From contig NZ_JAMRXH010000003.1 of NCBI RefSeq assembly GCF_023740735.1, positions 124,001 to 188,000 on the forward strand: DNA of 64,000 nt, given 5' to 3'. The notes below the pieces were generated by a model. It was not told the origin of the DNA. It saw nothing but the letters and a program-made list of their open reading frames with translations, and did not search any database. The position numbers and the translations under genes are program-made. The first letter of the stretch is position 1; every line of letters starts with the position of its first letter. This stretch comes from Nocardia sp. CDC159 (GTDB taxonomy: Bacteria > Actinomycetota > Actinomycetes > Mycobacteriales > Mycobacteriaceae). Below are positions 9,478 through 61,653 of this stretch, in pieces.

Positions 9478-9511
9478 CCCCGCATCCGGCGCTGGGGCGC
9501 CGGATGCGGGG
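9478..9511. terminator. Perfect 14-bp hairpin flanking the 21-bp array
   Basis: CCCCGCATCCGGCG (9478-9491) and CGCCGGATGCGGGG (9498-9511) are fully complementary with loop CTGGGG. It lies upstream of the exonuclease start and at the low-coordinate end of the array, so ileS transcripts that read through the first hairpin would meet this one. Confidence 0.6.
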
Positions 9512-9676
9512 AAACAAGAAGACGGACGCTGGGGAAACAAGAAGACGGACGCTGGGGCACAAGGCGGACCGCCGGGGAAACACGGCGGACCGCCGGGGAA
9601 ACACGGTGGACCGCTGGGGAAACACGGTGGACCGCTGGGGAAACAAGACGGACCGCTGGGGAAACAGGGTGGACCG
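9508..9676. repeat. Tandem array of eight 20-23-bp units
   Basis: Units follow GGGGAAACAxGGxGGACCGCT. The first two are 23 bp with an AAGAAGAC variant, and the rest are about 21 bp. The array begins inside the right arm of the hairpin at 9478-9511 and ends 15 bases before the hairpin at 9692-9724. The unit core CGCCGGGGAAACACGG resembles that second hairpin's arm, CGCCGGGCAACAGGG. No gene is claimed here, although plus-strand reading gives a collagen-like Gly-Pro-Leu-Gly-Lys pattern. Confidence 0.85.
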
Positions 9677-9691
9677 CAGCGGCCGGCCCGT

Positions 9692-9724
9692 CCCTGTTGC
9701 CCGGCGTAGCGCCGGGCAACAGGG
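9692..9724 (-). terminator. Terminator hairpin of ileS
   Basis: Perfect 15-bp stem CCCTGTTGCCCGGCG / CGCCGGGCAACAGGG with a 3-base loop, 6 bases beyond the ileS stop codon. It is the strongest simple hairpin in the first 15 kb. There is no U-tract, so it would be an I-shaped actinobacterial terminator. Confidence 0.75.
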
Positions 9725-9730
9725 GGTGGG

Positions 9731-12700
9731 TCAGACCTTCGTGATCGACGCTCGAACGCCGCCGACCAGGTCGGCCGGGTTCGCGGTGGCCTCGCCGAAG
9801 GTGAGGGTCGTGGCGAGGACCTCGCCCGCGATCAGGTCGCGGTGGGTTCGGGCCCAGGCGAGCTTGTCGGCGGGGACCTCCAGGACGAGCGAGATCCGGT
9901 CGGAGACGTCCAGGCCCAGGGACTTGCGGGTTTCCTGGAGGTCGCGGATGAGGTCGCGGGCCCAGCCCTCGGCCTCGAGATCCTCGGTGACCTCCGAATT
10001 CAGCACGACCAGGCCCGCGTTGCCGGGCAGGGCCGCGGTGGATTCGGGTTCGGCGGCCACCAGGCGCTGGGTGTACTCCTCCGGCAGCAGGTCGATCCCT
10101 GCGGCGGAGACCACGCCCTCGGGGCTCTCGGTCCACTCCCCGGCCTTGACCGCCTTGATCACCGTCTGGACGTCCTTGCCCAGGCGCGGGCCCGCGGCGC
10201 GGGCGTTCACGACCAGCTCGAAGCGGCCGTGCGCGGCGACGTCGGTGGTCAGATCGACCTTCTTGACGTTGATCTCGTCGGCGACCAGATCCACGAAGGG
10301 GGCCAGCCGGTCGGCGTCGGGGGCGGCGATGGTCACCTCCGACAGCGGCAGGCGCACCCGCAGGTTCTGGGCCTTGCGCAGGCTCAAGGCCGTCGAGCAG
10401 ACCGCGCGCACCTCGTCCATCGCCGACACCAGCTCCGGATCCTTCGGCAGTTCGTTCGCGGCGGGCCAGTCGGTCAGATGCACCGAGCGGCCGCCGGTCA
10501 GACCGCGCCAGATCACCTCGGTGATCAGCGGCAGCAGCGGTGCGGCCAGGCGGGTGGTCACCTCGAGCACCGTGTGCAGGGTGTCGATGGCGTCGCGGTC
10601 CTCGTCCCAGAAGCGCGAACGCGACCGGCGTACATACCAATTGGTGAGCGCGTCGGCGAAGGTGCGCAGCTGCTCACAGGCGGCGTTGATGTCGTAGACC
10701 TCGAGTGCCTCGGTCATCGCGTCGCGCGTGGCCGCCAGCTTCGCCAGGATGTAGCGATCCAGCACATGCTGCGAATCCGTCCGCCACTCGCCGGGTTTCG
10801 ACGCGTACAGCTGCAGGAACGTCCACGCGTTCCACAGTGGCCGCAGCGCATGGCCGACGCCCTCACGGATGCCGCGCTCGGTGACGATGAGGTTGCCGCC
10901 GCGCAGGATCGGCGAGGCCATCAGGAACCAACGCATGGCATCGGAGCCGTCGCGGTCGAAGACCTCGTTCACGTCCGGATAGTTGCGCTTGGACTTCGAC
11001 ATCTTCTGCCCGTCGTCGCCGAGCACGATGCCGTGCGCGACCACGGATTTGAACGCGGGCCGATCGAACAGCGCGGTCGAGAGCACATGCAGGTTGTAGA
11101 ACCAGCCGCGCGTCTGCCCGTTGAACTCGACGATGAAATCGCCTGGGCTGTGCGCGGCAACGTCCTGCGTGCCCTCGAACCACTCCTTGTTCTCGAACGG
11201 GTAATGCACCTGCGCATAGGGCATCGACCCGGACTCGAACCAGCAGTCCAGCACCTCCGGCACCCGCCGCATCATCGACTTGCCGGTCGGATCATCGGGA
11301 TTGGGCCGCACCAACTCGTCGATCCCCGGGCGGTGCAGATCGCTCGGCCGCACGCCGAAATCGCGCTCCAACTGATCCAGCGAACCGTACACATCGACGC
11401 GCGGGTACTCCGGATTGTCCGACACCCACACCGGGATCGGCGCACCCCAGTAGCGATTACGGCTGATGTTCCAGTCGCGCGCGTTCTCGAGCCACTTCCC
11501 GAACTGTCCGTCGCGGATGTGCTCGGGCACCCAGGTGATCTGCTTGTTCAGCTCCACCATCCGGTCGCGGAACTTGGTCACCGCGACGAACCACGACGGC
11601 ACGGCCATGTAGATCAGCGGCTGGCCCGAACGCCAGCTGTGCGGATAGGAGTGCTCGATGGTCTCGTGCCGCAGCAGCTTCCCGGCCGCCTTGAGGTCCT
11701 TGATGATCACCGGGTTGGCATCGAAGACCATCAGGCCCTCGTACGGCGGCACCATCGAGGTGAACTTGCCGCCCGGATCCAGCGGCTGCACGATCTCGAT
11801 ACCGTTGGCCGCGGCGACGTCCATGTCCTCCTCACCGAACGCCGGTGCGAGGTGCACGACGCCGGTGCCGGAGTCGGTGGTCACGTAGTCGGCCTCGAGC
11901 ACGCGGTGCGAGTTCGGGTGGCCGAGGAAGAAGTCGAACGGCGGGCGGTAGCTCAGCCCGACCAGCGCCGCACCCACATGCTCCGACAGGATCTGCGGCT
12001 CGTCACCCAGTTCGCGGGCGTAATGCGAGACGCGTTCGGCGGCCAGCAGGTAGCGCTTGCCGTCCTTGCCCCGCACGTGCACATAGGTGATGTCCGGATG
12101 CACGGCGATGGCCAGATTGGACGGCAGGGTCCAGGGCGTGGTGGTCCAGATCAGCGCGTTCGCGCCGTCGAGCTCGCGCAGCGGATGATCCTCGGGCACT
12201 CCGAGCACCATGTCCACGGTGACCGCCGGGTCCTGACGCATCCGATAGGCGTCGTCCAGGCGCGCCTCCTGGTTGGACAGCGGCGTCTGCTCGTACCAGC
12301 TGTAGGGCAGCACCCGGAAGCCCTGATAGATCAGCCCCTTGTCGTACAGCGACTTGAAGGCCCACATCACCGATTCCATGAAGCTGGGATCGAGGGTCTT
12401 GTAGTCGTTGTCGAAGTCCACCCAGCGGGCCTGACGGGTCACATACGCGCGCCACTCATTGGTGTAGCGCAACACCGACGATTTGCACTTGGCATTGAAT
12501 TCCGCCAGGCCCATCGCGTCGATCTGTGATTTGTCCGTGATACCGAGCTGCTTCTCCGCTTCGATTTCCGCGGGCAGGCCGTGGGTGTCCCAGCCGAATC
12601 GGCGCTCGACCTTCTTACCGCGCATCGTCTGGAAACGCGGGATCAAATCCTTGACGTATCCGGTGAGCAGGTGTCCGTAATGGGGCAATCCATTGGCGAA

Positions 12701-12955
12701 GGGGGGACCGTCGTAGAAGACGAACTCCTCGGCGCCGGAACGGTTCTCGATGCTGGCCCGGAAGGTGTCGTCGGCGGCCCAGTAGTCCAGGACACGCCGC
12801 TCCAGCTCCGGAAACGACACCTGGCCGCCGGTACCCAGATCCACGCGTGGGTAGGCGGGAGCGACGCGATGGGACTCGCGAGCCTGCGTAACCATGGAGG
12901 GAGCCGCGGACGCCTCAGTGGGCACAGAGTTGCGGGTGGCTGCTTCGTCCGCCAT
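9731..12955 (-). CDS. ileS: Isoleucyl-tRNA synthetase (eukaryotic-like type)
   Basis: Charges tRNA-Ile in the cytoplasm. The protein is 1074 aa. The class I HIGH motif appears as [13 protein letters not shown] (about residues 85-97) and [11 protein letters not shown] lies near residue 650. These variants and the length belong to the type 2, eukaryotic-like IleRS found in mycobacteria and nocardiae, generally associated with low sensitivity to mupirocin. Editing-domain sequence lies between the two motifs, and the anticodon-binding domain fills the C-terminal third. ATG at 12955 ([10 protein letters not shown]) is chosen because earlier in-frame starts fall inside the T-box leader. A strong hairpin ends the gene. 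Confidence 0.97.
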
Positions 12956-13190
12956 GTCGGGCAGTGGTCTCCTCGTGCCAGTGCGCCTGCGGCGCATCCC
13001 GGTGGGCACGGGGACGACCTCGGCGCCGGTGCGCCGAAACCGCGGTACCACCCCGCTTGTCCGAATGCGGACCTCTCGTTCGTGAGCTGTGACGGGCTCA
13101 CCCGTTCGGTTCTACTGAGCGTCGGGGCCGACGCCGTTCTTCCGAAGGCTCCCCGGTGATGGCCGGATCGATGCCGTTGCTTCGTGTTTG
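12956..13190 (-). promoter_or_regulatory. ileS T-box riboswitch, ultrashort stem I translational type
   Basis: Read on the minus strand, the leader contains GATCCGGCC-ATC-ACCGGGGA, a short stem I with isoleucine specifier ATC at 13160-13158. GGAAGAACGG and CAGTAGAACCG follow, then a stem II/pseudoknot region with CGGGTGAGCCCG, a stem III hairpin GTCCGCATTCGGAC, and the T-box antisequestrator GGGTGGTACCGCGG (motif at 13052-13040). A GAGGAG Shine-Dalgarno sequence lies upstream of the ileS ATG. Uncharged tRNA-Ile should expose this site. The layout matches the N. farcinica ileS T-box whose complex with tRNA has been solved. Confidence 0.93.
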
Positions 13191-13212
13191 ATTGTAGCCG
13201 TGCCGGGCAAAC

Positions 13213-13722
13213 CTATTCTCGGCCCCGGCGTTCGCCGGGGAAATGAGAGGAATCGCCTGGATAACGAGTGGCTTTACCCGGGTACCGAGTGGCTTCACCC
13301 GGGTACCGAGTGGCTTCGTCCGGGTAACCAGTTGCTTCGTCCGGGTACCGAGTGGCTTCGTCCGGGTACGGAGTAGCTTCATCCGGGTATCGGGCCGAAG
13401 CGCCTGGGTATCGGGATGAATCAGCCGGGTACCGAGCGGAATCGCCCGAGTGCCGAGGAGCCGTGTCGCCCGAGTGTCGAGGAGCCGAATCGCCCGGATA
13501 TCCCCGCCGCGCGGGCGGCGCCGCGCGTTTGGCGTGACGAGCGGGACGGGACTGCGTATCGTCCTCGGCGTCGCGCATCGACAGCGCGCTCACCAGCAGC
13601 AGCACCGCACCGATGACGCACACGACAATGCACCCCCAGGCCCACATCACCGATCCGGTGGTCAACGCGGTCACCAGGAGGGCGAAGCCGATCGCGGCCA
13701 GGACGAGCGTCAGGACGAGCAT
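13213..13722 (-). CDS. Small membrane protein with heptad-repeat cytoplasmic tail
   Basis: A 169-aa protein with two hydrophobic segments (about residues 2-20 and 27-46, WGCIVVCVIGAVLLLVSAL), a short basic linker and a tail of about a dozen seven-residue repeats of form RYP(D/G)EAT. The tail degenerates toward SAPRHSGD at its start and ends HFPGERRGRE. ATG at 13722 has AGGGGG five bases upstream and is preferred to GTG at 13728. The membrane part looks like small actinobacterial membrane proteins found between ileS and wag31. The tail is encoded by a 21-bp tandem array, and a CCCCGGCG hairpin covers the last codons. Function unknown. Confidence 0.72.
   Translation of the reverse strand: MLVLTLVLAAIGFALLVTALTTGSVMWAWGCIVVCVIGAVLLLVSALSMRDAEDDTQSRPARHAKRAAPPARRGYPGDSAPRHSGDTAPRHSGDSARYPADSSRYPGASARYPDEATPYPDEATRYPDEATGYPDEATRYPGEATRYPGKATRYPGDSSHFPGERRGRE
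13223..13240 (-). terminator. Hairpin within the last codons of the repeat-tail gene
   Basis: CCCCGGCG (13223-13230) / CGCCGGGG (13233-13240), a perfect 8-bp inverted repeat with a 2-base centre. It is read on the minus strand just before the stop at 13215-13213 and encodes part of FPGERRG. Its arm resembles the array unit that precedes it. Confidence 0.5.
13249..13500. repeat. 21-bp tandem array encoding the RYPDEAT heptads
   Basis: On the plus strand the unit is CGGGTACCGAGTGGCTTCxTC, with about eight well-kept copies (13270-13420) and further decayed copies to about 13500. The period is a multiple of three, so the frame is kept. It resembles the non-coding arrays elsewhere in the window. 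Confidence 0.85.
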
Positions 13723-14672: not shown

Positions 14673-14700
14673 GGAAGGATCCCTTCACGCTTCGTACGGA

Positions 14701-14718: not shown

Positions 14719-14745
14719 GCAAGCTATTCTTCACGGCCCATTCTG

Positions 14746-26043: not shown

Positions 26044-27120
26044 TTACCCGACCTGAGAGAGGTATTCGCTGTAGAACAAGCCCAGTCCGACCGCCGAGGC
26101 GATACCGGCCAGCAACCAGAACCGAATGATGACCGTGGTCTCGGCCCATTTGCTGAGTTCGAAATGATGGTGGAAGGGCGCCATCTTGAACAATCGATTG
26201 CGTGTGGTCCGGAAGACCGCCACCTGCAACACCACCGATGCGGCCTCGGCGACGAACAGCGCGCCGATCACGACCATCAGCAGTTCGGTGCGGGTGGTGA
26301 TGGACAGTCCGGCGATCAGGCCACCGAGGGCCAGTGAACCGGTGTCACCCATGAAGATCTTCGCGGGAGCCGCGTTCCACCACAGGAATCCGATGCACGC
26401 GGCCGCGCCCGCCGCGCAGACCAGCGCCAGATCCAGTGGATCGCGCACGTTGTAGCAGCCCGCCTCGGCCTTGACCTCGCAGGCGTGGTAGTACTGCCAG
26501 AAGGTGATGATCACGTAGGCGCCCAGCACCAGGCTCATCGAACCGGCGGCCAGGCCGTCGAGTCCGTCGGTCAGATTCACCGCGTTCGACCAGGCGACCA
26601 CCACCAGGCAGACGAAGGCCAGAAAGATGATCACGCCCATGGACACGGTGTTGATATCGCGGACATAGGACAGGTGGCGGCTGGCCGGGGTGCGCCCGCT
26701 CGCGCCCGGGAACTGCAGCGCCAGCACGCCGAAGACGATCGCCGCGGTCAGCTGGCCGATGTATTTGCCCGCGGCCGTGAGGCCCAGATTGCGCTGTTTG
26801 CGGATCTTGATGAAGTCGTCGACGAAGCCGACCATGCCCAGTGCGGTGGCCAGGCCGAGCACCAGCAGCGCCGAGGTCGTCGGGCCCTCGGCGCGATAGC
26901 CGATGCCGATCAGGTGCGAACCCCAGTATCCGGCCCACATGCCGATCAGGATGGCGACGCCGCCCATGGTCGGAGTGCCGCGCTTGGCCTTGTGGCTCTC
27001 CGGGCCGTCGATGCGGATCTCCTGGCCGAAGCCGCGGCGGGCGAACATGCGGATCAGCAACGGGGTCAACAGGATCGACACCGCCAGTGCGATGCCCGCG
27101 GCGAACAGGATCTGTCTCAT
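26044..27120 (-). CDS. mraY: Phospho-N-acetylmuramoyl-pentapeptide transferase (MraY/MurX)
   Basis: Transfers phospho-MurNAc-pentapeptide to polyprenyl phosphate, forming lipid I. It is 358 aa with ten transmembrane segments. The cytoplasmic loops carry [26 protein letters not shown] (catalytic Asp pair), [27 protein letters not shown] and PFHHHFE, all standard MraY motifs. ATG at 27120 overlaps the murF stop by four bases, which fixes the start. Confidence 0.98.
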
Positions 27121-28724
27121 CGGGCCGCCTCCGTTTCGGTCAGGTGCTGCGCGACCGCCCACAGACCGACGGAGTTCGAGGCCTTGACCAGCACCACGTC
27201 ACCCGCCGCGAGCTCGTCGTCCAGCAGTGCGATCGCGGATTCGATATCGGGCACGAGCACCGACTCCTCACCCCACGAGCCCTCCTGGACCGCGCCCTGA
27301 TGCATGCCGCGCGAGGGGCGGCCGGTGCCGACCACGACCAGCCGATCGACGTCCAGGCGCACGGCGAGTCGGCCGATGCGGTCGTGCTCGACCACCGATT
27401 CCTCGCCCAGCTCGGCCATTTCGCCGAGCACCGCCCAGCTCCGCCGCGGTCGCTCGCCCGCCTTGGACATGGTGACCAGGGCCTTGAGTGCGGCCCGCAT
27501 GGAATCCGGGTTGGCGTTGTAGGAATCGTTGATCACGGTGACGCCATCGGCGCGCGTGCGCACGTCCATGCGGTGCGCCGAGGCCACAGTCGCGCCGGAT
27601 AGCGCGCGGGCGACGGTGTCGAGATCCGCGCCGCATTCCAGCGCCACCGCCGCCGCCGACAACGCGTTGCCGACCTGGTGCTCGCCGTGCACGGCCAATC
27701 GCACCTCGACGCTGGAACCCTTGGCCGACAGGGTGAATCGGGCGCGAGCGGCCTCGTCGAGGACGACGTCCGTGGCCCGTACCTCGGCGCTCTCGGCCTG
27801 CCCGACGCGCACCACCCGGGCCGCGGTGCGCGCGGCCATCGCCACGACGTTCGAGTCGTCGGCATTGAGCACCGCGACGCCATCCGCCGGAAGCGCCTCC
27901 ACCAGTTCACCCTTGGCCTGCGCGATCGCCTCTCGGCTGCCGAACTCGCCCAGATGCGCCGTCCCGACATTGAGCACCACCCCGATCCTCGGCGGGGCGA
28001 TCTCGGTCAGCGCCTTGATATGTCCGTGCCCCCGCGCCGACAACTCGAGCACCAGGAACTTGGTCTCGGTGGTCGCGCGCAACGCAGTCCACGGATGCCC
28101 GATCTCGTTGTTGAACGAACCGGGCGGCGCCACAACCGATCCCAGCGGCGCCAGCACGCCCGCCAACAAATCCTTGGTCGAGGTCTTCCCCGACGACCCG
28201 GTGATCCCGACAACGGTCAGCCCGTTCTCCGCCACCAGCCGATCCACCACCACCCGAGCCAGTCTGCCCAGCGCGGCCAGCACCGCCGCCCCCGAACCAT
28301 CCGCGTCGTGCGCCAGCGCATACGCCGTGCCGGTGGGCGCGTCTTTCGACTCCCCAGCACGCGCACCCCTCGACTCCCCGGCACGCGCATCCCTCGACTC
28401 CCCGGCACGCGCATCCCTCGACTCCCCGGCACGCGCATCCCTCGACTCCCCGGCACGCTTTTCGCCGGGGAGCGGCTCGACGACGATCGCGGGCACGCCC
28501 ACCGGCCGCGCGGCCAGTACCGCTACCGCGCCCGCCGCGACTGCCGCGGCGGCGAAGTCGTGGCCGTCGACTCGTTCGCCCGGCAGGGCCAGGAACAGGC
28601 CGCCGGGTTCGATTCGGCGCGAATCGAATTCGACCGCGCCGGTCACCGTCACCGCGGGGTCGGGCACATCGTGCAGCGTCCCGCCGACGACGTCCGCGAT
28701 CTCCCGCAGGGTCATCTCGATCAT
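27117..28724 (-). CDS. murF: UDP-MurNAc-tripeptide D-alanyl-D-alanine ligase with in-frame repeat insertion
   Basis: Adds D-Ala-D-Ala to complete the pentapeptide. It is 535 aa. The N-terminal domain (residues 1-83) has [23 protein letters not shown]. The P-loop is [16 protein letters not shown] (about residue 172), [12 protein letters not shown] marks the C-terminal domain. Residues about 86-131 are an insertion of five to six copies of AGESRDAR, encoded by a 24-bp array, in the linker between the N-terminal and ATPase domains. All catalytic motifs are intact, so the enzyme is probably active; the insert is likely a disordered, charged loop. The start overlaps murE by four bases. Confidence 0.95.
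28342..28470. repeat. 24-bp tandem array inside murF, with hairpin
   Basis: Plus-strand unit CGACTCCCCGGCACGCGCAT + CCCT, three near-identical copies with a variant copy at each end. At its high-coordinate edge CCCCGGC (28448-28454) and GCCGGGG (28464-28470) form a hairpin with a 9-base loop. The 12-mer CGACTCCCCGGC is also the core of the array at 49920-50060, which links the two sites. The period is a multiple of three, so the murF frame is preserved. Confidence 0.9.
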
Positions 28725-30465: not shown

Positions 30466-32358
30466 TCAATCGGCCTGCAACACCAGGCGCGGAGCGGGCG
30501 GCGAGGGCGGCACCCGATCGCGCTGCAGGGCCCACGACGCGATGCTGTGGAACAGCGGCGCGGCCGACTGCCCGCCGCTGCCGTCGGAGCTGCGGATCGG
30601 GGCGTTCATCATGATGCCGATGACGTAGCGGGGATTGTCCGCGGGCGCGATCCCGGCGAAGGTGATCCAGTAGCGATCGTTGGAGTAGCAACGGCATGAT
30701 TTGTCGATCTGCTGGGCGGTACCGGTCTTACCGGCGATCTGGTAGCCCTCGACCGCGGCCGAGGGACCGGTGCCGGTCTGGGCGGAATTCATCGGATCGC
30801 GCTGGGTGACCGACTGGAACATGGTGCGCAGCGTGCGGGCGGTCTGCGGGCCGACCACCCGGACCCCCTCGGGCTGCGGCTCCTCGGTGCGCGGGCCGTC
30901 CTTGGGCGCGACGGTGGCCTTGACGATGCGCGGCGGAATGCGCACGCCGTCGTTGGCGATCGCCTGGTACATACCGGTCATCTGCAGCAGGGTCATCGAA
31001 AGGCCCTGTCCGATGGGCAGATTGGCAAAGGTGGAGCCGGACCACTGATCCCGGGGCGGCACGATGCCCGCGCTCTCGCCGGGCAGGCCCACGCCGGTGC
31101 GCTGGCCGAGCCCGAATCGCCTCAGCATGTCGGCGTAGCGGTCCTCGCCCACCCGCTGGGCCAGCATGAGGGTGCCGACGTTGGAGGAGTGGCCGAAGAT
31201 GCCGGTCGTGGTGAACGGCACCGTGCCGTGCTGCCACGCATCGCTGACGTTCACTCCGCCCATGTGAATGCTGCCCGGCACCTGCAGCACCTCGTTCGGG
31301 TTGGTCAGGCCGTACTCGAGGGCCGCGGCGGCGGTCACGATCTTGTTGACCGAACCGGGTTCGAAGGTGTCGGTGACCGAGCGGTTGCCCATCTGGTTCG
31401 GATCCCAATGCTTGGGTCCCAGATCGGGATTGAAGGTGTTGTCGTTGGCCATGGCCAGCACCTGGGCGGTGCGCGCGTCGAGCACCACCGCCGACACGTC
31501 CTCCGCGCCGGAGGCCTGCTTGGCCTGCTGCACCTGCTGCTGAACCTCGTACTGCAGGTCGGCGTCCAGGGTCAGTTCCACCTGGGAGCCGTCCACGGCG
31601 GGCTGGCGATCGCGCTCGCTGCCCGGAATGACCGCACCGTCGGAGCCCTTGTCGTAGGTGTGGGAGCCGTCGGTACCGGCCAGCACCGAGTCGAGCGTGG
31701 ACTCCAGCCCGAGCTGCCCGTGCCCGTCCCAGCCGGTGGCCCCGATGACATTGGCGGCCAGCGATCCGCCCGGATGCACCCGCGAGGGCTCGTCGTCCGC
31801 GCCGACCTCCGGGAACTTCTCGCGAATCTCACCGGCCACCCGCGCGTCCACATTGCGCGCCAGATAGACGAATCCCTCGTCTCCGCGCAGCTTGGCCAGC
31901 AGCTCGGCCTCCGACGGCCCGTCCTTGCCGAGCTTCTGATGAATCGTCTTGGCGATGGCCTGTAACCGCTCGTCGGGATCGGGCGCCTTGGCGCTCTTGG
32001 CGCGCGCCTCCGCGAGCTGTATGCGCACGATCACCGGCTGGAATCCCAGCGACTTCGTCGCGATGCTGAAGGCGAACGGCTTGCCGTTGCGATCCGTGAT
32101 CGCCCCCCGCAGCGCATGATCGGCCTGCCGCACGGTCCGCTGATTCGCGGCCTCCGCCGACAACCTCGGCGCGGAAACCGTCTGAATCCACAACAACTGC
32201 GCCGCCACCACCACCAGCGCCACCAACATCACCACCCGCCCCACCCCGAACCGCAGAACCCCCTCGGCCCCCCGCCGCCGAGCCCTCCCCCGCACCCGCG
32301 GCCGCCTTGCCGTCGCCCCCCGCCGCCCCCGCTGTTGCACCCCACCACGCCCCGCCAT
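30466..32358 (-). CDS. pbpB: Septal transpeptidase PbpB (class B PBP, FtsI)
   Basis: Cross-links septal peptidoglycan together with FtsW. It is 630 aa. A basic cytoplasmic N-terminus and one transmembrane helix (VVMLVALVVVAAQLLW, about residues 44-60) precede the dimerisation/pedestal domain and the transpeptidase domain. The active-site motifs are SVNK (Ser336), SSN in GHSSNVGTLM and KTGTA in IAGKTGTAQQI. ATG at 32358 (MAGRGGVQQR) is chosen; an earlier in-frame start at 32385 also exists. A repeat-rich 424-base gap separates it from ftsL. Confidence 0.96.
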   Translation of the reverse strand: MAGRGGVQQRGRRGATARRPRVRGRARRRGAEGVLRFGVGRVVMLVALVVVAAQLLWIQTVSAPRLSAEAANQRTVRQADHALRGAITDRNGKPFAFSIATKSLGFQPVIVRIQLAEARAKSAKAPDPDERLQAIAKTIHQKLGKDGPSEAELLAKLRGDEGFVYLARNVDARVAGEIREKFPEVGADDEPSRVHPGGSLAANVIGATGWDGHGQLGLESTLDSVLAGTDGSHTYDKGSDGAVIPGSERDRQPAVDGSQVELTLDADLQYEVQQQVQQAKQASGAEDVSAVVLDARTAQVLAMANDNTFNPDLGPKHWDPNQMGNRSVTDTFEPGSVNKIVTAAAALEYGLTNPNEVLQVPGSIHMGGVNVSDAWQHGTVPFTTTGIFGHSSNVGTLMLAQRVGEDRYADMLRRFGLGQRTGVGLPGESAGIVPPRDQWSGSTFANLPIGQGLSMTLLQMTGMYQAIANDGVRIPPRIVKATVAPKDGPRTEEPQPEGVRVVGPQTARTLRTMFQSVTQRDPMNSAQTGTGPSAAVEGYQIAGKTGTAQQIDKSCRCYSNDRYWITFAGIAPADNPRYVIGIMMNAPIRSSDGSGGQSAAPLFHSIASWALQRDRVPPSPPAPRLVLQAD

Positions 32359-32782
32359 CACCAACCGCCCCCAACTACATCCCACACCTGGGCACCGAAC
32401 CCGGCTGTACTCGTGACCCCTGCACCAAACCTCGCAGCACCCCTGTCCCGGACACCGAACCGCGCTGCCTCCCTCGCCTCGGCACCGAAACTCACCGCAC
32501 CCCTCACCTGGGCAGCGGACCTGGCTGCATCCCTCTCCTCAGCACAGAAACTCGCCGCATTCCTTGCCATCGCACCCAACACCGCCGCGCACCGCCCGAT
32601 ACGAGCCGACCCGGTCATCGCGCGTTCGGAATTTCGTGTGCCGGTGATCCGCCGCGCGGGGCCGGACCACGCCGAGCGAATATCGACGGGGACCGGCGCG
32701 TGGCCGACGGCGCTCGCGGACCGGCCCGTGGGCACCGGCGTGGCCTTTCGTCGCGGTTGCGACATGCCGCACCGGCTCGCCG
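32359..32782. other. ftsL-pbpB spacer with repeat array
   Basis: 424 bases where mycobacteria have adjacent genes. The pbpB-proximal half is the 30-bp array described separately; the ftsL-proximal half (about 32595-32782) shows no clear gene, hairpin or promoter. Frames open through the array give repetitive peptides without homology that I recognise. Confidence 0.5.
32392..32590. repeat. 30-bp degenerate tandem array between ftsL and pbpB
   Basis: Six to seven units on the pattern GGCACCGAAxCTCGCxGCA + CCCCTCxCCTC, clearest from 32450 to 32570. Divergence between copies is 20-40 percent by eye. The period allows open frames on both strands (for example ten-residue units like AEAREAARFG on the minus strand), but no start or ribosome-binding site supports a gene. 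No hairpin is obvious at its edges. Confidence 0.8.
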
Positions 32783-40793: not shown

Positions 40794-40826
40794 CGCCCTC
40801 GCGCTTGCCCCGGCGCTGGCCCCTCG

Positions 40827-40860
40827 CCCTTGCCCCGGCGCTGGCGCGCCGGGGCAAGGG
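40827..40860 (+). terminator. Terminator hairpin after lppM
   Basis: CCCTTGCCCCGGCG (40827-40840) / CGCCGGGGCAAGGG (40847-40860): perfect 14-bp stem, 6-base loop, 33 bases past the lppM stop. The left arm is a second copy of TTGCCCCGGCGCTGGC, which also occurs 25 bases earlier (about 40805-40820). Confidence 0.75.
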
Positions 40861-41165
40861 AACAGGAGGATGCCCGCGGCATGGAACGAGAGCGCGCCCG
40901 GGGCCGAGGGAGCAAGAGCACGCCCGCGGCAACAGAAAAGAGCGCACCCAGAGTAAGAGAACAAGAGAATGCCCGTGGCTGGGGAACATGAGCTCGCCCG
41001 GAGCAAGAGAACAAGAGCTCGCCCGGAGCACAGTGGGAGAGGGCGCTAGGCCAAGGGAACGAGGGGCACCGGGGTCAGGGAACTAGAGGGCGCCCGAAGC
41101 ACAGAAACGCGAGCACGCCCGGGCAAAGGAACGAAAGCAGGCCTGGGGCAGTGGTACGGGAGAGT
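40851..41165. repeat. 24-25-bp tandem array of about twelve decayed units
   Basis: Unit consensus GAACAAGAGCxCGCCCGGxG + CAAGG. It begins as the right arm of the hairpin (CGGGGCAAGGGAACAGGAGG) and continues downstream with growing divergence; 40985-41035 holds the two best copies. The period equals the 25-bp spacing of the two left-arm copies before the hairpin. Confidence 0.85.
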
Positions 41166-48933: not shown

Positions 48934-49877
48934 ATCGTGCCGACGCGGGTGGCGAGCCGGCGGCCTATCGGCGCTGCGCACGAATCGCCGCTGCCCACGG
49001 CCGCACCTACTTCCTCGCGGCCCGGCTGCTCTCCCCCGAACGCCGCCGGGCCATGCACGCGCTGTACGCCTTCGCCCGCACGGTGGACGACATCGTGGAC
49101 GGGCAGGCCGAAGACGCTGCGGCGCAACTGGATCGGATCGAGAAGGACCTGGACGAGCGACTGGTCGCCGGAGATCCGGGCGAGCCGGACGATCCGGTGC
49201 TGTTCGCGGTGAGCGACACCATCCTGCGCTACGAGATCGCGCGCGAACACTTCCGCACCTTCCTCGACGCCATGCGCATGGACGTCCCCGGCTCCCCGCT
49301 GTTCCGCAACCGCTACGCCACCATGTCCGAACTGCGCGAGTACATGCGAGGCTCCGCCGCCGCCATCGGCCTGCAACTACTCCCGGTCCTGGGGACGGTG
49401 GTCCCCATCCCCACCGCCGAACCCGCGGCCGCCGCCCTCGGCGAGGCCTTCCAACTGACGAACTTCCTGCGCGACATCGCCGAAGACCTCGACCGCGACC
49501 GCATCTACCTCCCCACCGAGGCCCTCACCGCCTTCGGCGTCGACGAGCCCCTCCTCCACCACTGCCACCGCACCGCCCACACCGATCCCCGCCTCCGCCG
49601 CGCCCTGGCTCACCTGATCGCCCTCAACCGCGACCTCTACCGCACCGCGGTCCCGGGCATCGACCTCCTGCACCCCCGGGTCCGCCCGGCCATCCGCACC
49701 GCGGCGCTCCTCTACGGGGAAATCCTGCACGAGATCGAGCACTCGGGGTACGCGGTGTTCGATCGCCGCGCGGTGGTACCGGGCCACCGGCGATTGTGGG
49801 TGGCCGCGAGGGAGTTCGCGGGGGCGCGCAGTCCCCGTCGCTCCGGCCTGGGGGCCGTCACGACGGGGAACAAGTAG
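48930..49877 (+). CDS. crtB: Phytoene synthase
   Basis: Condenses two geranylgeranyl diphosphates to phytoene, the first committed carotenoid step. It is 315 aa. HALYAFARTVDDIVDG holds the first Asp-rich motif (about residues 52-56), NFLRDIAEDLDRDRIYLP the second, and MSELREYMRGSAAAIGLQLL lies between. ATG at 48930 overlaps the mptA stop (ATGA), indicating translational coupling with a mannan-synthesis gene. Codon use changes along the gene: the 3' half is unusually rich in CCC, CTC and CGC. Confidence 0.95.
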   Translation: MNRADAGGEPAAYRRCARIAAAHGRTYFLAARLLSPERRRAMHALYAFARTVDDIVDGQAEDAAAQLDRIEKDLDERLVAGDPGEPDDPVLFAVSDTILRYEIAREHFRTFLDAMRMDVPGSPLFRNRYATMSELREYMRGSAAAIGLQLLPVLGTVVPIPTAEPAAAALGEAFQLTNFLRDIAEDLDRDRIYLPTEALTAFGVDEPLLHHCHRTAHTDPRLRRALAHLIALNRDLYRTAVPGIDLLHPRVRPAIRTAALLYGEILHEIEHSGYAVFDRRAVVPGHRRLWVAAREFAGARSPRRSGLGAVTTGNK

Positions 49878-49893
49878 AAACTCCAGCCCCCGC

Positions 49894-50092
49894 GCCGGGG
49901 AACGGCGGATCCCCGCAGGGCGGCCATTCCCGACTCCCCGGCCGTGCCCGATCCCCTACGGTTGCTTCCCGACTCCCCGGCCGTGCCCGATCCCCTACGG
50001 TTGCTTCCCGACTCCCCGGCCGTGCCCGATCCCCTGCGGTTCCTTCCCGACTCCCCGAGGCTCCTTACCGATTCCCCGAGCGAAGCGAGGGG
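49894..50092. repeat. 39-bp tandem array ending in a hairpin at the Rv2175c-like gene
   Basis: Three units of CTTCCCGACTCCCCGGCCGT + GCCCGATCCCCTACGGTTG, with half-unit similarity (about 20 bp), plus decayed copies to 50060. GCCGGGGA (49894-49901) pairs with TCCCCGGC (49935-49942) at the low end. At the high end CCCCGAGC-GAA-GCGAGGGG (50074-50092) forms a hairpin with tandem G-A mismatches that abuts the stop codon at 50093. The core CGACTCCCCGGC equals that of the murF array. Confidence 0.85.
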
Positions 50093-50467
50093 TTAGAACG
50101 GATCCGCAGCAGCCCTGCGCAGCACCTCCCTGGCGAGGGGGCCGTGGATGGCGTCCACCGGGCGGCCCGGCAGCGTTTCGTCCTCGGTGTAGATCCACTC
50201 CAGGATTTCTTCGTCGGTGTACTTTGCGTCGCGCATCACAGTGATCAGGCCGGGGAGGGGTTTGACCACGGCTCCGGTGGAGTCGAAGAAATCCTTGGGT
50301 ACCCCGGCTATGCCATCGCGGCGGACCGCGAGGAGCTGATGATCGCGCAGCATCTGATGGACCCTGGTCACGGGGATGCCGAGCTGTTCGGCCACATCCG
50401 GGAGCGGGAGCAGGGTCACCGCTTCCGGAAGAACATCGTCGCTGCATGGAAATGCACTCACGTCCAT
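50093..50467 (-). CDS. Rv2175c-like DNA-binding protein
   Basis: A 124-aa protein with a helix-turn-helix core (TLLPLPDVAEQLGIPVTRVH then QMLRDHQLLAVRRDGIAGVP, about residues 24-63) and a C-terminal helical domain (YTDEEILEWIYTEDETLPG and AIHGPLAREVLRRAAADPF). It is divergent from pknL, as Rv2175c is in M. tuberculosis, where PknL phosphorylates it and thereby prevents DNA binding. Start ATG 50467 (MDVSAFPCSD). Confidence 0.9.
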   Translation of the reverse strand: MDVSAFPCSDDVLPEAVTLLPLPDVAEQLGIPVTRVHQMLRDHQLLAVRRDGIAGVPKDFFDSTGAVVKPLPGLITVMRDAKYTDEEILEWIYTEDETLPGRPVDAIHGPLAREVLRRAAADPF

Positions 50468-50590
50468 AACGGTAGTAGGTCGCGCCGGGCCCGTCGTGAG
50501 ACACCCTGACCGATTCGGCCGATACCATCGGGTGAGCCGCCACGGGGGCGGCATCCGCTTGTCGCACCCGAAGCGAGAGGTGAGAGCTTT
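50468..50590. promoter_or_regulatory. Divergent promoter region, Rv2175c-like gene / pknL
   Basis: 123 bases. AGCGAGAGGTGAGAG with GAGAGGTGAGAG gives the pknL ribosome-binding site. CGTAACGGTAGTAGG-type sequence sits next to the Rv2175c-like start. No clear palindrome. A self-binding site for the Rv2175c-like protein would be expected here. Confidence 0.35.
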
Positions 50591-52591
50591 GTGAAAGTCG
50601 GAGGACAGCAGTTGATCGGCCAGATGCTGGACGGGCGCTACCGCATCGACGCGCCGATCGCGCGGGGCGGTATGTCGATGGTGTTTCGGGGGGTCGACAC
50701 CAGACTGGACCGGCCGGTCGCCATCAAGGTGATGGATCCGAAGTTCGCCGGAGATCCGCAATTCCTGACGCGGTTCGAATTCGAGGCCCGCTCGGTGGCC
50801 AAGCTCAAGCATCCATCCCTGGTCGCGGTCTACGACCAGGGTATCGACGGCGACTACCCGTTCCTGATCATGGAACTGGTCGAGGGCGGCACGCTGCGCG
50901 AACTGCTGCGCGAACGCGGCCCGATGCCCCCGCACGCGGTCCGTGCGGTCGCCGAGCCGGTGCTCGACGCGATCGGCGTCGCCCATCGCGCGGGGCTGAT
51001 CCATCGCGACATCAAGCCGGAGAATGTGCTCATCTCCGATTCGGGCGAGGTGAAGATCGCCGACTTCGGCCTGGTCCGCGCGGTCGCCGGATCGAATATG
51101 ACCTCGGCCAGCGTCATCCTCGGCACCGCCCACTACCTCTCGCCCGAGCAGGTCACCGACGGCACCGCCGATGAGCGCAGCGACGTCTACTCCTTCGGCA
51201 TCCTCATCTTCGAAATGCTCACCGGCCGAACCCCGTTCACCGGCGACAACTCGTTGTCGATCGCCTATCAGCGGGTGGAGAAGGATGTGCCCAGTCCCGG
51301 CCGCCTCATCGCCGGGGTGCCGCCGCAATTCGACGAACTGGTCGCCCGCGCCACCGCGCGCGAGCCCGCGCACCGCTTCGCCGACGCCGACGAGATGGCC
51401 GCCGAACTGCGCCGCGTCGCCGCTGAACTGCGACTACCCGATTACCGCGTGCCCGCGCCGAAGGAATCGGCCGAACATCTGTCGACCCGCTATCGCGCCG
51501 TTCCCGCCACCCCGGCCCCGCCGCCGCGCCCGGCCCCACCGGTCGCCACGCCCGACGCGACCACGCGACTACCCGAACAGCGCCCGCCCATGCCCCAGCC
51601 GACCCGGGTGCTGACCGCGACGCAACATCTCCCGGAGTCCAACGGCCGCACCGCGATCGCCGAACCCCCGCCCCCGCCGCAGCGCCCGGCCTACGCCGGT
51701 GACGATCGCGGTCGCTCGCGCCGTCGCGTGCTGATCTGGACGGGCATCGTGGTGGCCCTGGCGCTCCTGCTGGGCATCGGCGGCTGGTACCTCGGGGTGG
51801 CGCGCTATTCGGCGGTGCCACCGATCGCCGGAATGGATGCCCCCCAGGCCACCACGGCCCTGCGGAATGCCGGATTCGACACCACGGTGCGCAACCGTGC
51901 CTCCGACATCATTCCGGTCGGGGGCGTGGTGGGCACCGATCCGCCCGCGGGCACGCGGGTCGTGAAGGGTTCGACCGTGGCGATCCTGGTGTCCAGCGGC
52001 AAACCGCAGGTGCCGCAGTTCCAGCCCGGCCAGGACGTGAAGACCGTCGAGCAACTCATCCGCGACGCGGGTCTGCGCCCGGTCGACGGCGGCGAGACGG
52101 CCAATACCGCTCCCAAGGGCACGGTGGCGCAACTGGATCCGAAACCCGGCACCGTCCTGCCCACGGGGGCCTCGGTGAAGGTGGTGCGCAGCAAGGGGTC
52201 TCAGCCGGTGAAGGTGCCCGATGTGCGCGGCAAGACCGTCGAGGAGGCGACCGCCGCGCTGCAGAAGGCGGGATTCACCGTGGGCGACACCAGAACCGAG
52301 TTCGATTCGAAGATCAAGACCGGTCAGGTGATCGGCACCGATCCGGCCGCGGGCCAGAGCGTGCTGTCCGGCGGAAATATCGCGCTGATCGTCTCCGATG
52401 CCGTGAAGATCCCCGACGTCACCGGCATGACCGCCGACTCCGCCCGCGCCCAGTTGGAGGGCATGGGGCTGAAGGTGGTGTTGAACAGCGTCTTCGCGGG
52501 CGATCACGGCACCGTCCGGGTGCAGACCCCGTTCGCCGGATCGTCCGTCGAGCCGGGCGCGACCGTCACGCTGACGGTGCTGCCGTTCTAA
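50591..52591 (+). CDS. pknL: Serine/threonine protein kinase PknL with four PASTA domains
   Basis: A membrane receptor-type kinase of 666 aa. Kinase domain residues about 17-275: ATP-binding ARGGMSMVF, Lys46 in VAIK, catalytic HRDIKPEN (138-145), DFG at 158-160, GTAHYLSPEQ in the P+1 loop. A Pro-rich juxtamembrane segment (about 300-370) leads to a transmembrane helix (VLIWTGIVVALALLLGIGGW, about 380-399). Four extracellular PASTA repeats (about 407-666), each with VxGTDPxAG-like spacing, may sense muropeptides. GTG start at 50591. Neighbour and probable substrate is the divergent DNA-binding gene. Confidence 0.96.
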   Translation: MKVGGQQLIGQMLDGRYRIDAPIARGGMSMVFRGVDTRLDRPVAIKVMDPKFAGDPQFLTRFEFEARSVAKLKHPSLVAVYDQGIDGDYPFLIMELVEGGTLRELLRERGPMPPHAVRAVAEPVLDAIGVAHRAGLIHRDIKPENVLISDSGEVKIADFGLVRAVAGSNMTSASVILGTAHYLSPEQVTDGTADERSDVYSFGILIFEMLTGRTPFTGDNSLSIAYQRVEKDVPSPGRLIAGVPPQFDELVARATAREPAHRFADADEMAAELRRVAAELRLPDYRVPAPKESAEHLSTRYRAVPATPAPPPRPAPPVATPDATTRLPEQRPPMPQPTRVLTATQHLPESNGRTAIAEPPPPPQRPAYAGDDRGRSRRRVLIWTGIVVALALLLGIGGWYLGVARYSAVPPIAGMDAPQATTALRNAGFDTTVRNRASDIIPVGGVVGTDPPAGTRVVKGSTVAILVSSGKPQVPQFQPGQDVKTVEQLIRDAGLRPVDGGETANTAPKGTVAQLDPKPGTVLPTGASVKVVRSKGSQPVKVPDVRGKTVEEATAALQKAGFTVGDTRTEFDSKIKTGQVIGTDPAAGQSVLSGGNIALIVSDAVKIPDVTGMTADSARAQLEGMGLKVVLNSVFAGDHGTVRVQTPFAGSSVEPGATVTLTVLPF

Positions 52592-59366: not shown

Positions 59367-59800
59367 CCTTCGACCCGTTTCTTGAGTTCCTTGAGGGCCG
59401 TGTCGGTGATGACCTTCTCGGCCTTGCGCTTGAACATGCCGATCATCGGGATCGTCAGGTCGACGGTCAGTTCGTAGCTCACCTGGGTGGTGCCGTCGGG
59501 CTGGTCGAACAGCTCGTAGGTGCCGTCCTGCGCCTTCTGTAAATCACCGCTGACCAGCTGCCAGGTGACGGCCTTGCCGTCGGGACGCCAGGTGTAGGAC
59601 AGCACGTAGGTGTCCTTGACCACCCCGGCGTCCAGGATGAAGCGCGCCGTGCGGGCCCGGCCGTCGGGGAATTTGTCGAGCACCTCCACCGAGCGCGCGG
59701 CCGACACCCACTCCGGGTACGACTCCAGGTCGGCGATGACGGCCATCACCCGATCCGACGGGGCGTCGATGATGATCGACCTCTGGGTCCGGTCGGCCAT
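59363..59800 (-). CDS. SRPBCC-family protein (Rv2185c / TB16.3-like)
   Basis: A 145-aa START/Bet v1-fold protein: MADRTQRSIIIDAPSDRVMA, then DLESYPEWVSAARSVEVLDK, VVKDTYVLSYTWRPDGKAVT, and a long C-terminal helix KAEKVITDTALKELKKRVEG. Such proteins bind hydrophobic ligands. Position equals Rv2185c. It is co-directional with a second SRPBCC gene 56 bases upstream and overlaps the ArsA-like gene by four bases. Confidence 0.92.
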   Translation of the reverse strand: MADRTQRSIIIDAPSDRVMAVIADLESYPEWVSAARSVEVLDKFPDGRARTARFILDAGVVKDTYVLSYTWRPDGKAVTWQLVSGDLQKAQDGTYELFDQPDGTTQVSYELTVDLTIPMIGMFKRKAEKVITDTALKELKKRVEG

Positions 59801-59856
59801 GGCGGGAAGCGTTTCCTTTCCGGCTGCGAGACAACGGTTTCCGGCGAGTGCCGGAA

Positions 59857-60246
59857 CTAGGGCACGGGCACGGGGCTGACGCCCGCCGGTCGCCCGGCCT
59901 CGAGGCGCGCCTTCACCTCGAACGACATCCGCTTACCGGCCACCCGCCGCTGCCGATTGGCGGCCAGCAGCGCCCGGGGCGTCAGGCGCGCGGCGTTCCA
60001 TGGTTCGGCGTGCAGGAAGTAGTGCAGGATCACCCCGTCCAGGCTGGGCTCGAGCCATACCTCCATGGTGCCGGTCAGCGGGCCCGCGACGGTCCAGCGA
60101 ATTCCCTTCTCGGCCCGGTCTTCTCGAACCTCGAGCGCCAGATCCGGCCACCAGCGCCGCCAGCTGTCGCGATCGGCCAGCACCGCCGCGACGGCACTGC
60201 CCGGGGCGGCGACGAACGTCTGGTCGGCAACCTGGATCGAACTCAT
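59857..60246 (-). CDS. SRPBCC-family protein (Rv2186c-like)
   Basis: A 129-aa ligand-binding fold protein: MSSIQVADQTFVAAPGSAVA, DRDSWRRWWPDLALEVREDR, and the strand-helix end AARLTPRALLAANRQRRVAG. ATG at 60246 is chosen since it begins the conserved first strand. Lies 10 bases after pimB' and before its paralogue, probably one transcript with both. Confidence 0.88.
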   Translation of the reverse strand: MSSIQVADQTFVAAPGSAVAAVLADRDSWRRWWPDLALEVREDRAEKGIRWTVAGPLTGTMEVWLEPSLDGVILHYFLHAEPWNAARLTPRALLAANRQRRVAGKRMSFEVKARLEAGRPAGVSPVPVP

Positions 60247-60256
60247 GCGCCCGAGC

Positions 60257-61420
60257 CTAGCTCGAGACGCCGCCGTGGCTCGATCGCACAGTTCCGTCGA
60301 GCAGTTCGCGCAGGCGGGCGGCGAGCACATCCCAGCGCCAGTGCTCGCTCACCCAGTCCCGGCCCGCGGCGCCCATGGCCGCGGCGGTGTCCGGATCGGA
60401 CAGCAGGGTGACGATGGCATCGGTGAGCTGCTGCTGGGAGCGGCCGTCGACGACGGTGCCGGTGCGGCCCTCCCGCACGGTCTCCGGTGCGCCGCCGGAG
60501 TTGCCCGCGACCACCGGGACGCCGGTGGCGGAGGCCTCGAGGAACACGATGCCCAGGCCCTCGACGTCCAGTCCGGCGCCGCGGGTGCGGCAGGGCATGG
60601 CGAAGACATCGGCGATGGTGTGGTGGGCGGCCAGTTCGGCGGCGGGGACGCGGCCGGTGAAGATCACGTCGTCGGCCAGGTCGAGGGCGGCGGCCAGGCC
60701 GCGCAGCTTGTCCTCGTAGGGCCCGCTGCCCGCGATCACCAGGACCGCGCCGGGGACGCGCTTGCGGATCTCGGGCATGGCCAGGATGAGCATGTCCTGG
60801 CCCTTGCGCGGGACCAGCCGGGACAGGCACAGCACGGTCGGCCGCTCCCCCAGCCCGTAGCGGGCGCGCAGTTCGGCGCGCGCCGCCGGATCGGGACGGA
60901 ACACCTCGGTATCGACGCCGGGCGGCAGATACTCCAGCCCCGCCTGCGGTCCGAAGGCGGCCGCGAATCGCCTGCGGGTGTATTTGCTGACGTAGGTGAC
61001 CGCATCGGTGTGATCGCCGATCACCCGCAGCGCCTGCCGCGCCGCGGGCAGCATCGACCAGCCGACCTCGTGCCCGTGCGTACTCGCCACGATCCGCTCG
61101 GCCCCCGCCCCCCGCAGCAGCGGCGACAGCAGCGCCAGCGGCGCCGCCGCCCCGAACCACACGGTGTCGCACCGCTCGTCCCGTAACAACTTCGCCGCCC
61201 GCCGCCACACCAGCGGCGTCGGCACCATCAGCGTCGTCGGATGCCGCACCACCTGAAACGGCTGCTCGGCATCGAATTTCAAATGGCTGTCCCCCCGCCA
61301 CCGCGGCGCATACACCACCAACTCATTCGCGGGCAACCGCACGGCCAGCGAATGCAGATACGACTGAATCCCCCCCGGCCGCGGCGGAAAGTCGTTGGTA
61401 ACCAGCAGGGTGCGCGCCAT
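60257..61420 (-). CDS. pimB: PIM alpha-(1->6)-mannosyltransferase PimB'
   Basis: GDP-mannose-dependent GT4 enzyme adding the second mannose to phosphatidylinositol monomannoside on the cytoplasmic face. It is 387 aa. MARTLLVTNDFPPRPGGIQS and THGHEVGWSMLPAARQALRV are N-domain signatures; LEYLPPGVDTEVFRPDP, SRLVPRKGQDMLI, and the C-domain E-x7-E region EGLGIVFLEASATGVPVVAG follow. Position equals Rv2188c; fadD15 (Rv2187), which separates it from the SRPBCC genes in mycobacteria, is absent. Functionally linked with mptA in lipoglycan synthesis. Confidence 0.95.
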   Translation of the reverse strand: MARTLLVTNDFPPRPGGIQSYLHSLAVRLPANELVVYAPRWRGDSHLKFDAEQPFQVVRHPTTLMVPTPLVWRRAAKLLRDERCDTVWFGAAAPLALLSPLLRGAGAERIVASTHGHEVGWSMLPAARQALRVIGDHTDAVTYVSKYTRRRFAAAFGPQAGLEYLPPGVDTEVFRPDPAARAELRARYGLGERPTVLCLSRLVPRKGQDMLILAMPEIRKRVPGAVLVIAGSGPYEDKLRGLAAALDLADDVIFTGRVPAAELAAHHTIADVFAMPCRTRGAGLDVEGLGIVFLEASATGVPVVAGNSGGAPETVREGRTGTVVDGRSQQQLTDAIVTLLSDPDTAAAMGAAGRDWVSEHWRWDVLAARLRELLDGTVRSSHGGVSS

Positions 61421-61653
61421 GCGCAGAGTCTATTGCCGCCCCACCGGCACCCCATTCCCGCCCCACACCGCCTTGAAACCGCTTGCGCCCCAAGGTCCTG
61501 ATGGCCCTGGCCTCGGCGCTGCGCGCCGAGGCCAGGAATGCGAGGAGCGGCGCGGCGCGGCCCCGCTGGATCCCTTCCCGGCGCGGCCCCGCTCGATCCC
61601 TTCCCGGGGTGGCCCAGCTCGATTCCCTTGTCCGGACGGAGTCCGGACAAGGG
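61421..61653. repeat. Hairpin-array-hairpin element downstream of the metallopeptidase gene
   Basis: CCTGGCCTCGGCG (61506-61518) / CGCCGAGGCCAGG (61524-61536) is a 13-bp perfect hairpin, loop 5. CCCTTGTCCGGA (61625-61636) / TCCGGACAAGGG (61642-61653) is a 12-bp perfect hairpin, loop 5, that abuts the stop at 61654. Between them three units near CCCTTCCCGGCGCGGCCCCG + CTCGAT (26 bp) begin with a version of the second hairpin's arm. The part at 61421-61505 holds the pimB' promoter. Confidence 0.85.

Follow-up and report, generated by a model that had tools for sequence, protein, structure and literature searches.

We analysed a window of 64,000 nucleotides (positions 124001-188000 of contig C23) from the 7.86-Mb genome of Nocardia sp. 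CDC159, hereafter G000, in which an original prediction had described eight short tandem arrays scattered among GC-rich hairpins. All eight arrays exist within some tens of bases of where they had been placed: Tandem Repeats Finder called them at 4161-4217, 9523-9677, 13265-13496, 28346-28458, 32378-32564, 40844-41033, 49921-50077 and 61553-61629. A hairpin touches six of them, as had been claimed, and the arrays at 4084 and 32392 have none. The repeated unit, which had been taken for an arm of the hairpin, does include the arm but extends further: it takes in the hairpin's 3′ half, in most cases beginning in the loop, and roughly 8-18 bp of adjoining sequence on one side. The features of the window are the following, with the strand given after the coordinates:

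4084-4225, no strand: 24-bp array that lacks a hairpin and is left out of the class.
9477-9512, +: hairpin with a perfect 16-bp stem and a TGG-type loop, heading the array on its right (RNA fold −39.3 kcal/mol, z −6.9).
9513-9677, +: array with a period of about 21-23 bp, the unit being the 3′ arm (from 4 nt past the loop) and tail of 9477-9512.
9692-9724, −: hairpin with a perfect 15-bp stem, 6 nt past the ileS stop codon (open reading frame (ORF) 9731-13051, −), facing the 9477 hairpin and with no array of its own here.
13223-13240, +: small hairpin CCCCGGCGTTCGCCGGGG, whose 3′ arm and tail match the first array unit by eye, automatic alignment being weak.
13241-13500, +: array called by Tandem Repeats Finder, with a period of 21 and then 24 bp and diverged units.
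27117-28724, −: murF, with an in-frame insertion at about residues 85-131.
28346-28445, −: in-frame 24-bp array (GTGCCGGGGAGTCGAGGGATGCGC) coding for RAGESRDA repeats.
28446-28472, −: small REP-like (repetitive extragenic palindromic) hairpin CTCCCCGGCGAAAAGCGTGCCGGGGAG within murF, an exact member of a dispersed family.
32378-32590, no strand: 30/60-bp array that lacks a hairpin and is likewise outside the class, located in ORF 32358-33407 (−) beside ftsI.
40827-40860, +: hairpin with a perfect 15-bp stem and a TGGC loop, with a partial extra 5′ arm ahead of it at 40804-40816.
40861-41165, +: array with a period of about 25 (50) bp, whose unit starts near the loop end and spans the 3′ arm and tail.
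49832-49869, +: imperfect hairpin with a 17-nt stem, 82% paired, and the tail GGGGAACAAG, facing an array and with no clear array of its own.
49921-50073, −: array of 39-bp units (about 18 + 21 bp), adjoining the hairpin at 50074-50092 and in register with it.
50074-50092, −: small imperfect hairpin CCCCTCGCTTCGCTCGGGG, directly 3′ of the stop codon of gene 50093-51373 (−).
61506-61536, +: hairpin with a perfect 14-bp stem, facing an array and with no clear array of its own.
61553-61624, −: 26-bp array, the unit being the 3′ arm and tail of 61625-61653, from 2 nt past the loop.
61625-61653, −: hairpin with a perfect 13-bp stem, directly 3′ of the stop codon of ORF 61654-62667 (−).

The folding of eight window hairpins as RNA gave stable structures (z −3.0 to −6.9), and three hairpins sit 0-6 nt past ORF stop codons. 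By inspection, their tails (for example GGGGAAACAAGAAG and AGGGAACAGGAGG) lack the T run that follows the GC hairpin of an intrinsic terminator. Nor do the arrays contain the different spacers of a CRISPR (clustered regularly interspaced short palindromic repeats) locus, since the tails are alike across the units of one array, point differences aside. Because it sits in an ORF, and because multiple-of-three periods occur near there in several other Nocardia, the array at 32378-32590 is probably a coding linker outside the hairpin class. An Rfam scan of the window returned the mraW RNA only (RF01746, 34781-34886, −), upstream of rsmH.

Nine window hairpins were compared with array units by gapped alignment, and 72 swapped hairpin/unit pairs served as control. 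Units made of the 3′ half of the hairpin plus bases past its foot were seen at 9477 (+), 28446 (−), 40827 (+), 50074 (−) and 61625 (−). The scores at 28446 (−), 9477 (+) and 40827 (+) were 62, 46 and 42, respectively, against a maximum of 30 among the swapped pairs. The hairpin at 61625 (−) scored 28 here, under the swapped maximum, and its score of 18 in the larger control presented below tops all the swapped pairs there. Those at 9692 (−), 49832 (+) and 61506 (+), with scores of 12, 18 and 14, head no clear array. Hence, the resemblance between unit and arm put forward by the original prediction is clear in three arrays (9508, 28342 and 40851) and less certain in three others, with those at 4084 and 32392 falling outside.

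We then considered the intergenic arrays with a score of at least 70 and a period of 15-50 in 1.2 Mb of G000. A strong hairpin was present at the array end in 13 out of 27, compared with a mean of 3.35 (maximum 5) over 20 random placements. Among the 14 arrays with any end hairpin, seven (the 61625 array being one of them) reached an arm-versus-unit score of 18, compared with 0 among 182 swapped pairs. As only the observed scores are maxima over candidate hairpins, the comparison is slightly biased in favour of a match. Starting from perfect stems of at least 10 bp, a score of 22 was found in 7 of 210 seeds, with 1.0 expected. An ungapped detector for hairpin-headed arrays gave 5 matches in the 1.2 Mb and was discarded as too strict, the array-first tests being used instead. 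Further arrays were found in G000 outside the window, and the tail motif GGGAANNNGAG had 16 intergenic matches compared with 5 for the reversed motif, which is suggestive of a shared tail motif. As a class, array units are closer to the adjacent arm than swapped pairs are, contrary to the outcome that had been named as fatal to the prediction. One could argue that these are ordinary variable-number tandem repeat (VNTR) loci lying near gene-end hairpins by chance, as the two window arrays without a hairpin might suggest, along with the three of the six hairpin-bearing ones that do not clearly pass the swapped-pair control. For the class, if not for each single array, this is refuted by the position and sequence controls and by the one-sidedness of the REP-like arrays described below, and we give it hardly any credence.

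Regarding the hairpin inside murF, its core CCGGCGAAAAGCGTGCCGG, with one mismatch allowed, occurs in 23 copies in G000, 103 in G150, 695 in G145 and 39 in G109, compared with 0-1 for the reversed control over 12 genomes. The exact sequence CCGGCSAAAAGCRYGCCGG is present in 27 of 150 Nocardia genomes, with up to 685 copies and no match to the reversed pattern in any of the 150, so that copy number is patchy within the genus, from 0 to 685. A C variant has 676 exact copies in G145 (control 0). Among 249 sampled genomes of the order, CCGGCSAAAAGCRYGCCGG was found in G000 and G134 only, both Nocardia, with one match to the reversed control; the 244 sampled genomes of other genera had none. The mobile palindromic element that the original prediction had invoked therefore has a counterpart, in that a dispersed palindrome family is involved.

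The AAAAGC loop of this family is asymmetric, and the palindrome consequently has a direction. Its distal stem varies between copies and often stays complementary, with at least 4 extra pairs in 69% of the copies compared with 19% when swapped. Column counts over the flanks of 83 copies gave mainly G-A-T-C before the core and G-A-(T/C)-C-A after it. Most of our counts come from G145, from which we sampled 65 copies in 480 kb. Among neighbouring copies less than 80 bp apart in this genome, 9 of 11 pairs were arranged −/+ with tails outward, and outward −/+ pairs were also numerous among the listed places of G066 and G086. The listed places of G145 seemed to favour one strand, which we put down to the way they were listed, since a count of both strands over 80 kb gave 5 copies on + and 7 on −. 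The Y1 transposase domain PF01797 was not found in G000, G150, G145, G109, G120, G011 or G001, all of which carry exact copies; out of 12 genomes searched it was present only in G155, which lacks the palindrome. On this basis, mobilisation by a REP-associated tyrosine transposase (RAYT) was rejected for the genomes tested.

The TGG-type hairpins of the window behave differently in such counts. Their exact core had 12 places in G000 and 31 for the reversed control. With one mismatch, G150 had 30 (12 reversed) and G000 12 (13 reversed), G150 being the only one of 12 genomes above control. No family is therefore claimed by count for this type. The hairpins that carry arrays comprise AAAAGC-loop REP-like palindromes and other GC-rich gene-end hairpins, and the two kinds may or may not be related. 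In G150, TGG-type hairpins face each other in pairs, at distances of about 300-650 bp (C3:53081-53742, C4:143510-143849, C16:530348-530673, C17:284888-285552 and C18:332327-332857); in the C3 and C18 pairs, the space between the hairpins is largely filled by arrays.

The arrays of the AAAAGC-loop family are strongly one-sided. Of the 65 copies sampled in G145, 34 had the arm and tail repeated on the 3′ side and 2 on the 5′ side, these two being members of close pairs with the neighbouring copy on that side. In the 43 unpaired copies, arrays were found 21 times on the 3′ side and never on the 5′ side. The same held (9 to 0) for the 20 unpaired copies whose 60 nt on the 5′ side were free of called gene ends or that lay within a called gene, and (5 to 0) for the 9 copies with 60 nt free on both sides; the gene calls of G145 are crude ones made by our own script. 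Seven other genomes (G000, G001, G011, G109, G120, G134 and G150) supplied a further 35 copies, with 17 arrays on the 3′ side and 0 on the 5′ side. A first mixed set of 83 copies, which overlaps both of these, gave 45 and 2, with a swapped null of 7%.

Of the 34 arrays of G145, 31 allowed the start of the first unit to be located. The loop held this start in 26 arrays and the 3′ stem in the other 5, with no start in the 5′ stem; 12 of the 31 began at AAAA|GC, and 28 had a period of 21-26. In the seven other genomes, where 16 of 17 arrays were measurable, the figures were 12, 4 and 0. When both sets are pooled, 38 of 47 measurable arrays start in the loop and the 5′ stem is never reached (0/47). 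Both members of a close −/+ pair carry outward arrays in three of nine pairs, and arrays were found in 12 of 21 G145 copies in sense context, just past a stop codon, and in 7 of 17 in antisense context. Hence, the side is not set by fork direction alone or by sense transcription alone, and array direction follows the palindrome itself; it was the antisense arrays that led us to discard sense transcription as the only cause. Tails vary by locus and yet are repeated within each array, from which we infer that arrays arise in situ, once the palindrome is in place.

Taking together these data and the three window arrays that are clearly the 3′ half of a hairpin plus a few bases, we consider it likely that the arrays are made in place by repeated local re-copying, each round of which begins again in the loop or close to it. 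A DNA end would form roughly 8-18 bp past the hairpin foot, and would re-anneal through short homology in the loop or be joined to the loop. The 3′ arm and the tail would thereby be copied again, and the array might then grow and be homogenised by ordinary unequal slippage. The steps that link this model to the pattern of the finished arrays are conjectural. Given that array direction follows the palindrome's own loop and not the surroundings, the break point is probably set by the sequence of the palindrome, that is, by the loop or by a protein reading it.

The main rival is that a sequence-specific enzyme, either a hairpin-loop nuclease or a putative REP-processing transposase, cuts the folded loop and that the 3′ half is re-joined downstream, the arrays being by-products. 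A cut of this kind would more directly explain a one-sidedness independent of the surroundings, and it fits the predominance of starts in the loop, with their mode at AAAA|GC, and the patchy copy numbers within one genus. Against it, no candidate enzyme emerged: PF01797 was not found in the tested genomes that bear the palindrome and turned up only in G155, which lacks it. Some units, though fewer, also begin in the 3′ stem. We regard it as rather unlikely, if still a serious competitor. Slightly less probable in our eyes is the bolder idea of a minisatellite-writing system tied to a mobile palindrome: a Nocardia gene product would recognise which way the palindrome points, open the loop and lay down tandem copies of the 3′ half and tail, and could thereby lengthen in frame even essential proteins such as MurF.

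Several observations weigh against local re-copying. Finished arrays look alike under slippage, loop nicking and flap ligation, and no event has been observed. Simple palindrome-driven slippage alone predicts no one-sidedness relative to the loop. Roughly half of the REP-like copies carry no array. In the window, the swapped-pair control leaves a clear array head in just 3 of 9 hairpins: that at 50074 (−), with a score of 24, is in register yet not above the swapped pairs, and that at 13223 (+), with a score of 16, is in register by eye only and fails the control. At two window hairpins with TGG or short loops, the unit begins not in the loop but 2-4 nt into the arm, and the TGG-type hairpins of the window may not belong to the same family as the REP-like palindromes. 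The probabilities that we give to the different readings rest on the AAAAGC-loop family.

The comparison of shared sites between species speaks to the history of the arrays. At the murF site, G000, G150 and G145 share the hairpin core and have different tails, with a 24-bp period common to G000 and G150, and only a CCCCGGCGGGAAGC stretch remains in G109, the nearest of five compared genomes by nucleotide identity (87%). In the region 49832-50092, a similar gene-end hairpin is present in G000, G109 and G150 with different array units. At the 40827 site, G109 has the same loop-proximal core, a distal stem that is changed but complementary, and another array. At the end of ileS, G150 has a large array on the opposite hairpin (the 9692 side). 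The array at 13241-13500 has no counterpart at the orthologous site in any of 8 bracketed congeners. Overall, G150, G145, G109, G051 and G120 gave a tandem score of at least 50 at 10 of 20 bracketed sites, part of which were also examined for hairpins. At some shared sites, then, species have kept the hairpin and exchanged one array for another, so the decay that the original prediction placed after duplication is too simple an account.

These sites also bear on the possibility that hairpin and array travel together as a composite mobile element, similar to a miniature inverted-repeat transposable element (MITE) or a bacterial interspersed mosaic element (BIME), with arrays inserted ready-made. 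In five more distant congeners, bracketed comparisons at five window sites found an array in 0 of 15 and a hairpin (strength score of at least 20) in 3 of 15, which counts in favour of this possibility. Inverted pairs exist as well, with tails outward in the REP-like family and, in the TGG type of G150, with tails inward and arrays between. On the other hand, each locus has array tails of its own, which correspond to the bases immediately next to its hairpin, and some shared sites combine a conserved hairpin core with a different array. The proposal is largely refuted for the arrays, although it could survive for the bare hairpin, and we hold it to be improbable.

With respect to gene context, 21 of 54 intergenic copies in G145 have the hairpin start at most 20 nt from a sense stop codon, compared with 2 in the mirror position. 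A single copy out of 54 lies between divergent genes, against a background of 54 divergent regions in 231, and 11 further copies lie within called genes. This gene-end placement resembles that of REPs and terminators, and the hairpins may plausibly act as RNA 3′-end structures. The terminators of the original prediction are nevertheless only putative, given the tails without a T run and the arrays that run antisense or sit within genes. The same figures could be read as a sign that the arrays are selected, with the repeated 3′ arms serving as back-up terminators or as protection of RNA 3′ ends, since divergent regions are nearly avoided. However, the placement argues for the hairpin and not for the array, and arrays are also found antisense and within called genes and are lost or replaced between close species; selection of the arrays therefore seems to us very unlikely.

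Inside genes, murF carries the palindrome in frame in G000, G150 and G145. In other Nocardia (150 genomes searched), murF alignments among the matches listed end at or before residue 99 or start past the insertion, those of G014 and G039 being too scant to judge; the insertion was absent from all 54 aligned relatives of another set. In G000, lspA (signal peptidase II; C23:114636-115733, or L018:14636-15733, −) has, if its called start is right, an N-terminal extension of roughly 200 residues, partly made of the REP core and several 27-48 bp arrays. In a prolyl oligopeptidase gene on contig C5 (L358:507-2654, −), the REP core is read in frame as PGEKRAG and no array accompanies it. Of the three copies located inside genes of G000, two (murF and lspA) have thus grown an array that is still open in frame.

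Other repeats were observed on contig C44 of G000. A small ORF of K-S-G-V-R-P-D-A repeats at C44:338468-338615 (−), starting MNILKSGVRPDA, looks like a multicore peptide precursor. Two distant arrays of 72-73 bp (C44:231464-231648 and C44:280230-280409) have in common a palindromic core, GTCCGGC.GG.ACGGCCGGA, between GCCGCAAT and GCAG, which is possibly a second dispersed palindromic repeat.

In order to contextualize the Nocardia palindrome, we compared it with described repeats. The GTAG REPs, their hairpin-forming doublets (REPINs) and BIMEs, which go with RAYT transposases, are palindromes dispersed at gene ends, in pairs and clusters. The Nocardia palindromes are likewise dispersed at gene ends, paired and clustered, but no Y1 transposase was found in the tested genomes that bear them and the GTAG tag is absent from the flank column counts. 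Whereas BIMEs and clustered REPs repeat the whole palindrome, none of the 47 measurable arrays has a unit that reaches into the 5′ stem. Rickettsia palindromic elements are inserted in frame in housekeeping proteins, as happens here in murF, lspA and the prolyl oligopeptidase; the difference is that two of the three in-gene Nocardia copies grew an in-frame array. Mycobacterial interspersed repetitive unit (MIRU) and VNTR loci are short intergenic tandem arrays in an actinobacterium, from which ours differ in having a unit of about 19-30 bp derived from the neighbouring hairpin. The TRIT terminator motif of M. tuberculosis is a repeated hairpin near gene ends, for which we know of no tandem half-copies. 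The Nocardia hairpins are also repeated near gene ends, a terminator role being only putative here. The TRIT motif is mentioned in PMC3526491.

The closest described kind, as far as the passages on it in Di Nocera et al. 2013 (PMC3733652) go, is the CGTC-tagged REP superfamily. These are short, polar, high-copy palindromes without a dedicated transposase, which bear CGTC (or TGTC/CCTC) beside one end of the stem, form inverted pairs with tags outward and lie mostly downstream of genes and sometimes within them; the paper also names the Rickettsia palindromic elements. Compared with that description, the Nocardia palindrome is also polar, high-copy, located at gene ends and sometimes in genes, has no Y1 transposase that we could find in the genomes tested, and its close pairs mostly have the tails outward. 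The strict CGTC tag stands beside the stem in 5/6 copies of G134, 4/5 of G011 and 3/4 of G120, but in only 5/65 of G145, 0/8 of G000, 0/4 of G109 and 1/6 of G150. TGG (=CCA) near the 5′ foot, to be compared with the unpaired CCA tail at the opposite end of the CGTC-REPs, was found in 5/6, 2/5, 2/4 and 10/65 copies of G134, G011, G120 and G145, and in 1/8, 0/4 and 0/6 of G000, G109 and G150. The Nocardia loop has 9 nt, compared with the 4-5 given for CGTC-REPs. Half-REP arrays are not described in the passages on CGTC-REPs, and the words ‘Nocardia’ and ‘Actinobacteria’ are absent from the main text of PMC3733652. As the window copy lacks the CGTC tag, we call it REP-like and do not file it in the superfamily. 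Among the open-licence articles of PubMed Central, judged mostly by title and the start of the abstract, we found no paper on half-palindrome arrays or on a REP family of Nocardia.

To our knowledge, the birth of tandem arrays from unique sequence is poorly understood, as old arrays hide their start. Here, a directional hairpin recurs, nearly unchanged, in hundreds of copies at many sites, and about every second copy examined bears an array made locally, the start of which mostly falls in the same region. This would turn minisatellite birth into a replicated natural experiment, whose controls are the hairpins without arrays, the sites without arrays and the replaced arrays. The arrays would also provide candidate typing loci for Nocardia, and they can stay open in frame within murF and lspA. 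Our best reading is that a half-palindrome is re-copied recurrently and with a fixed polarity, which would add a further form to REP biology. If the arrays are written in place repeatedly, these hairpins would document, in nature, the way in which minisatellites arise in bacteria.

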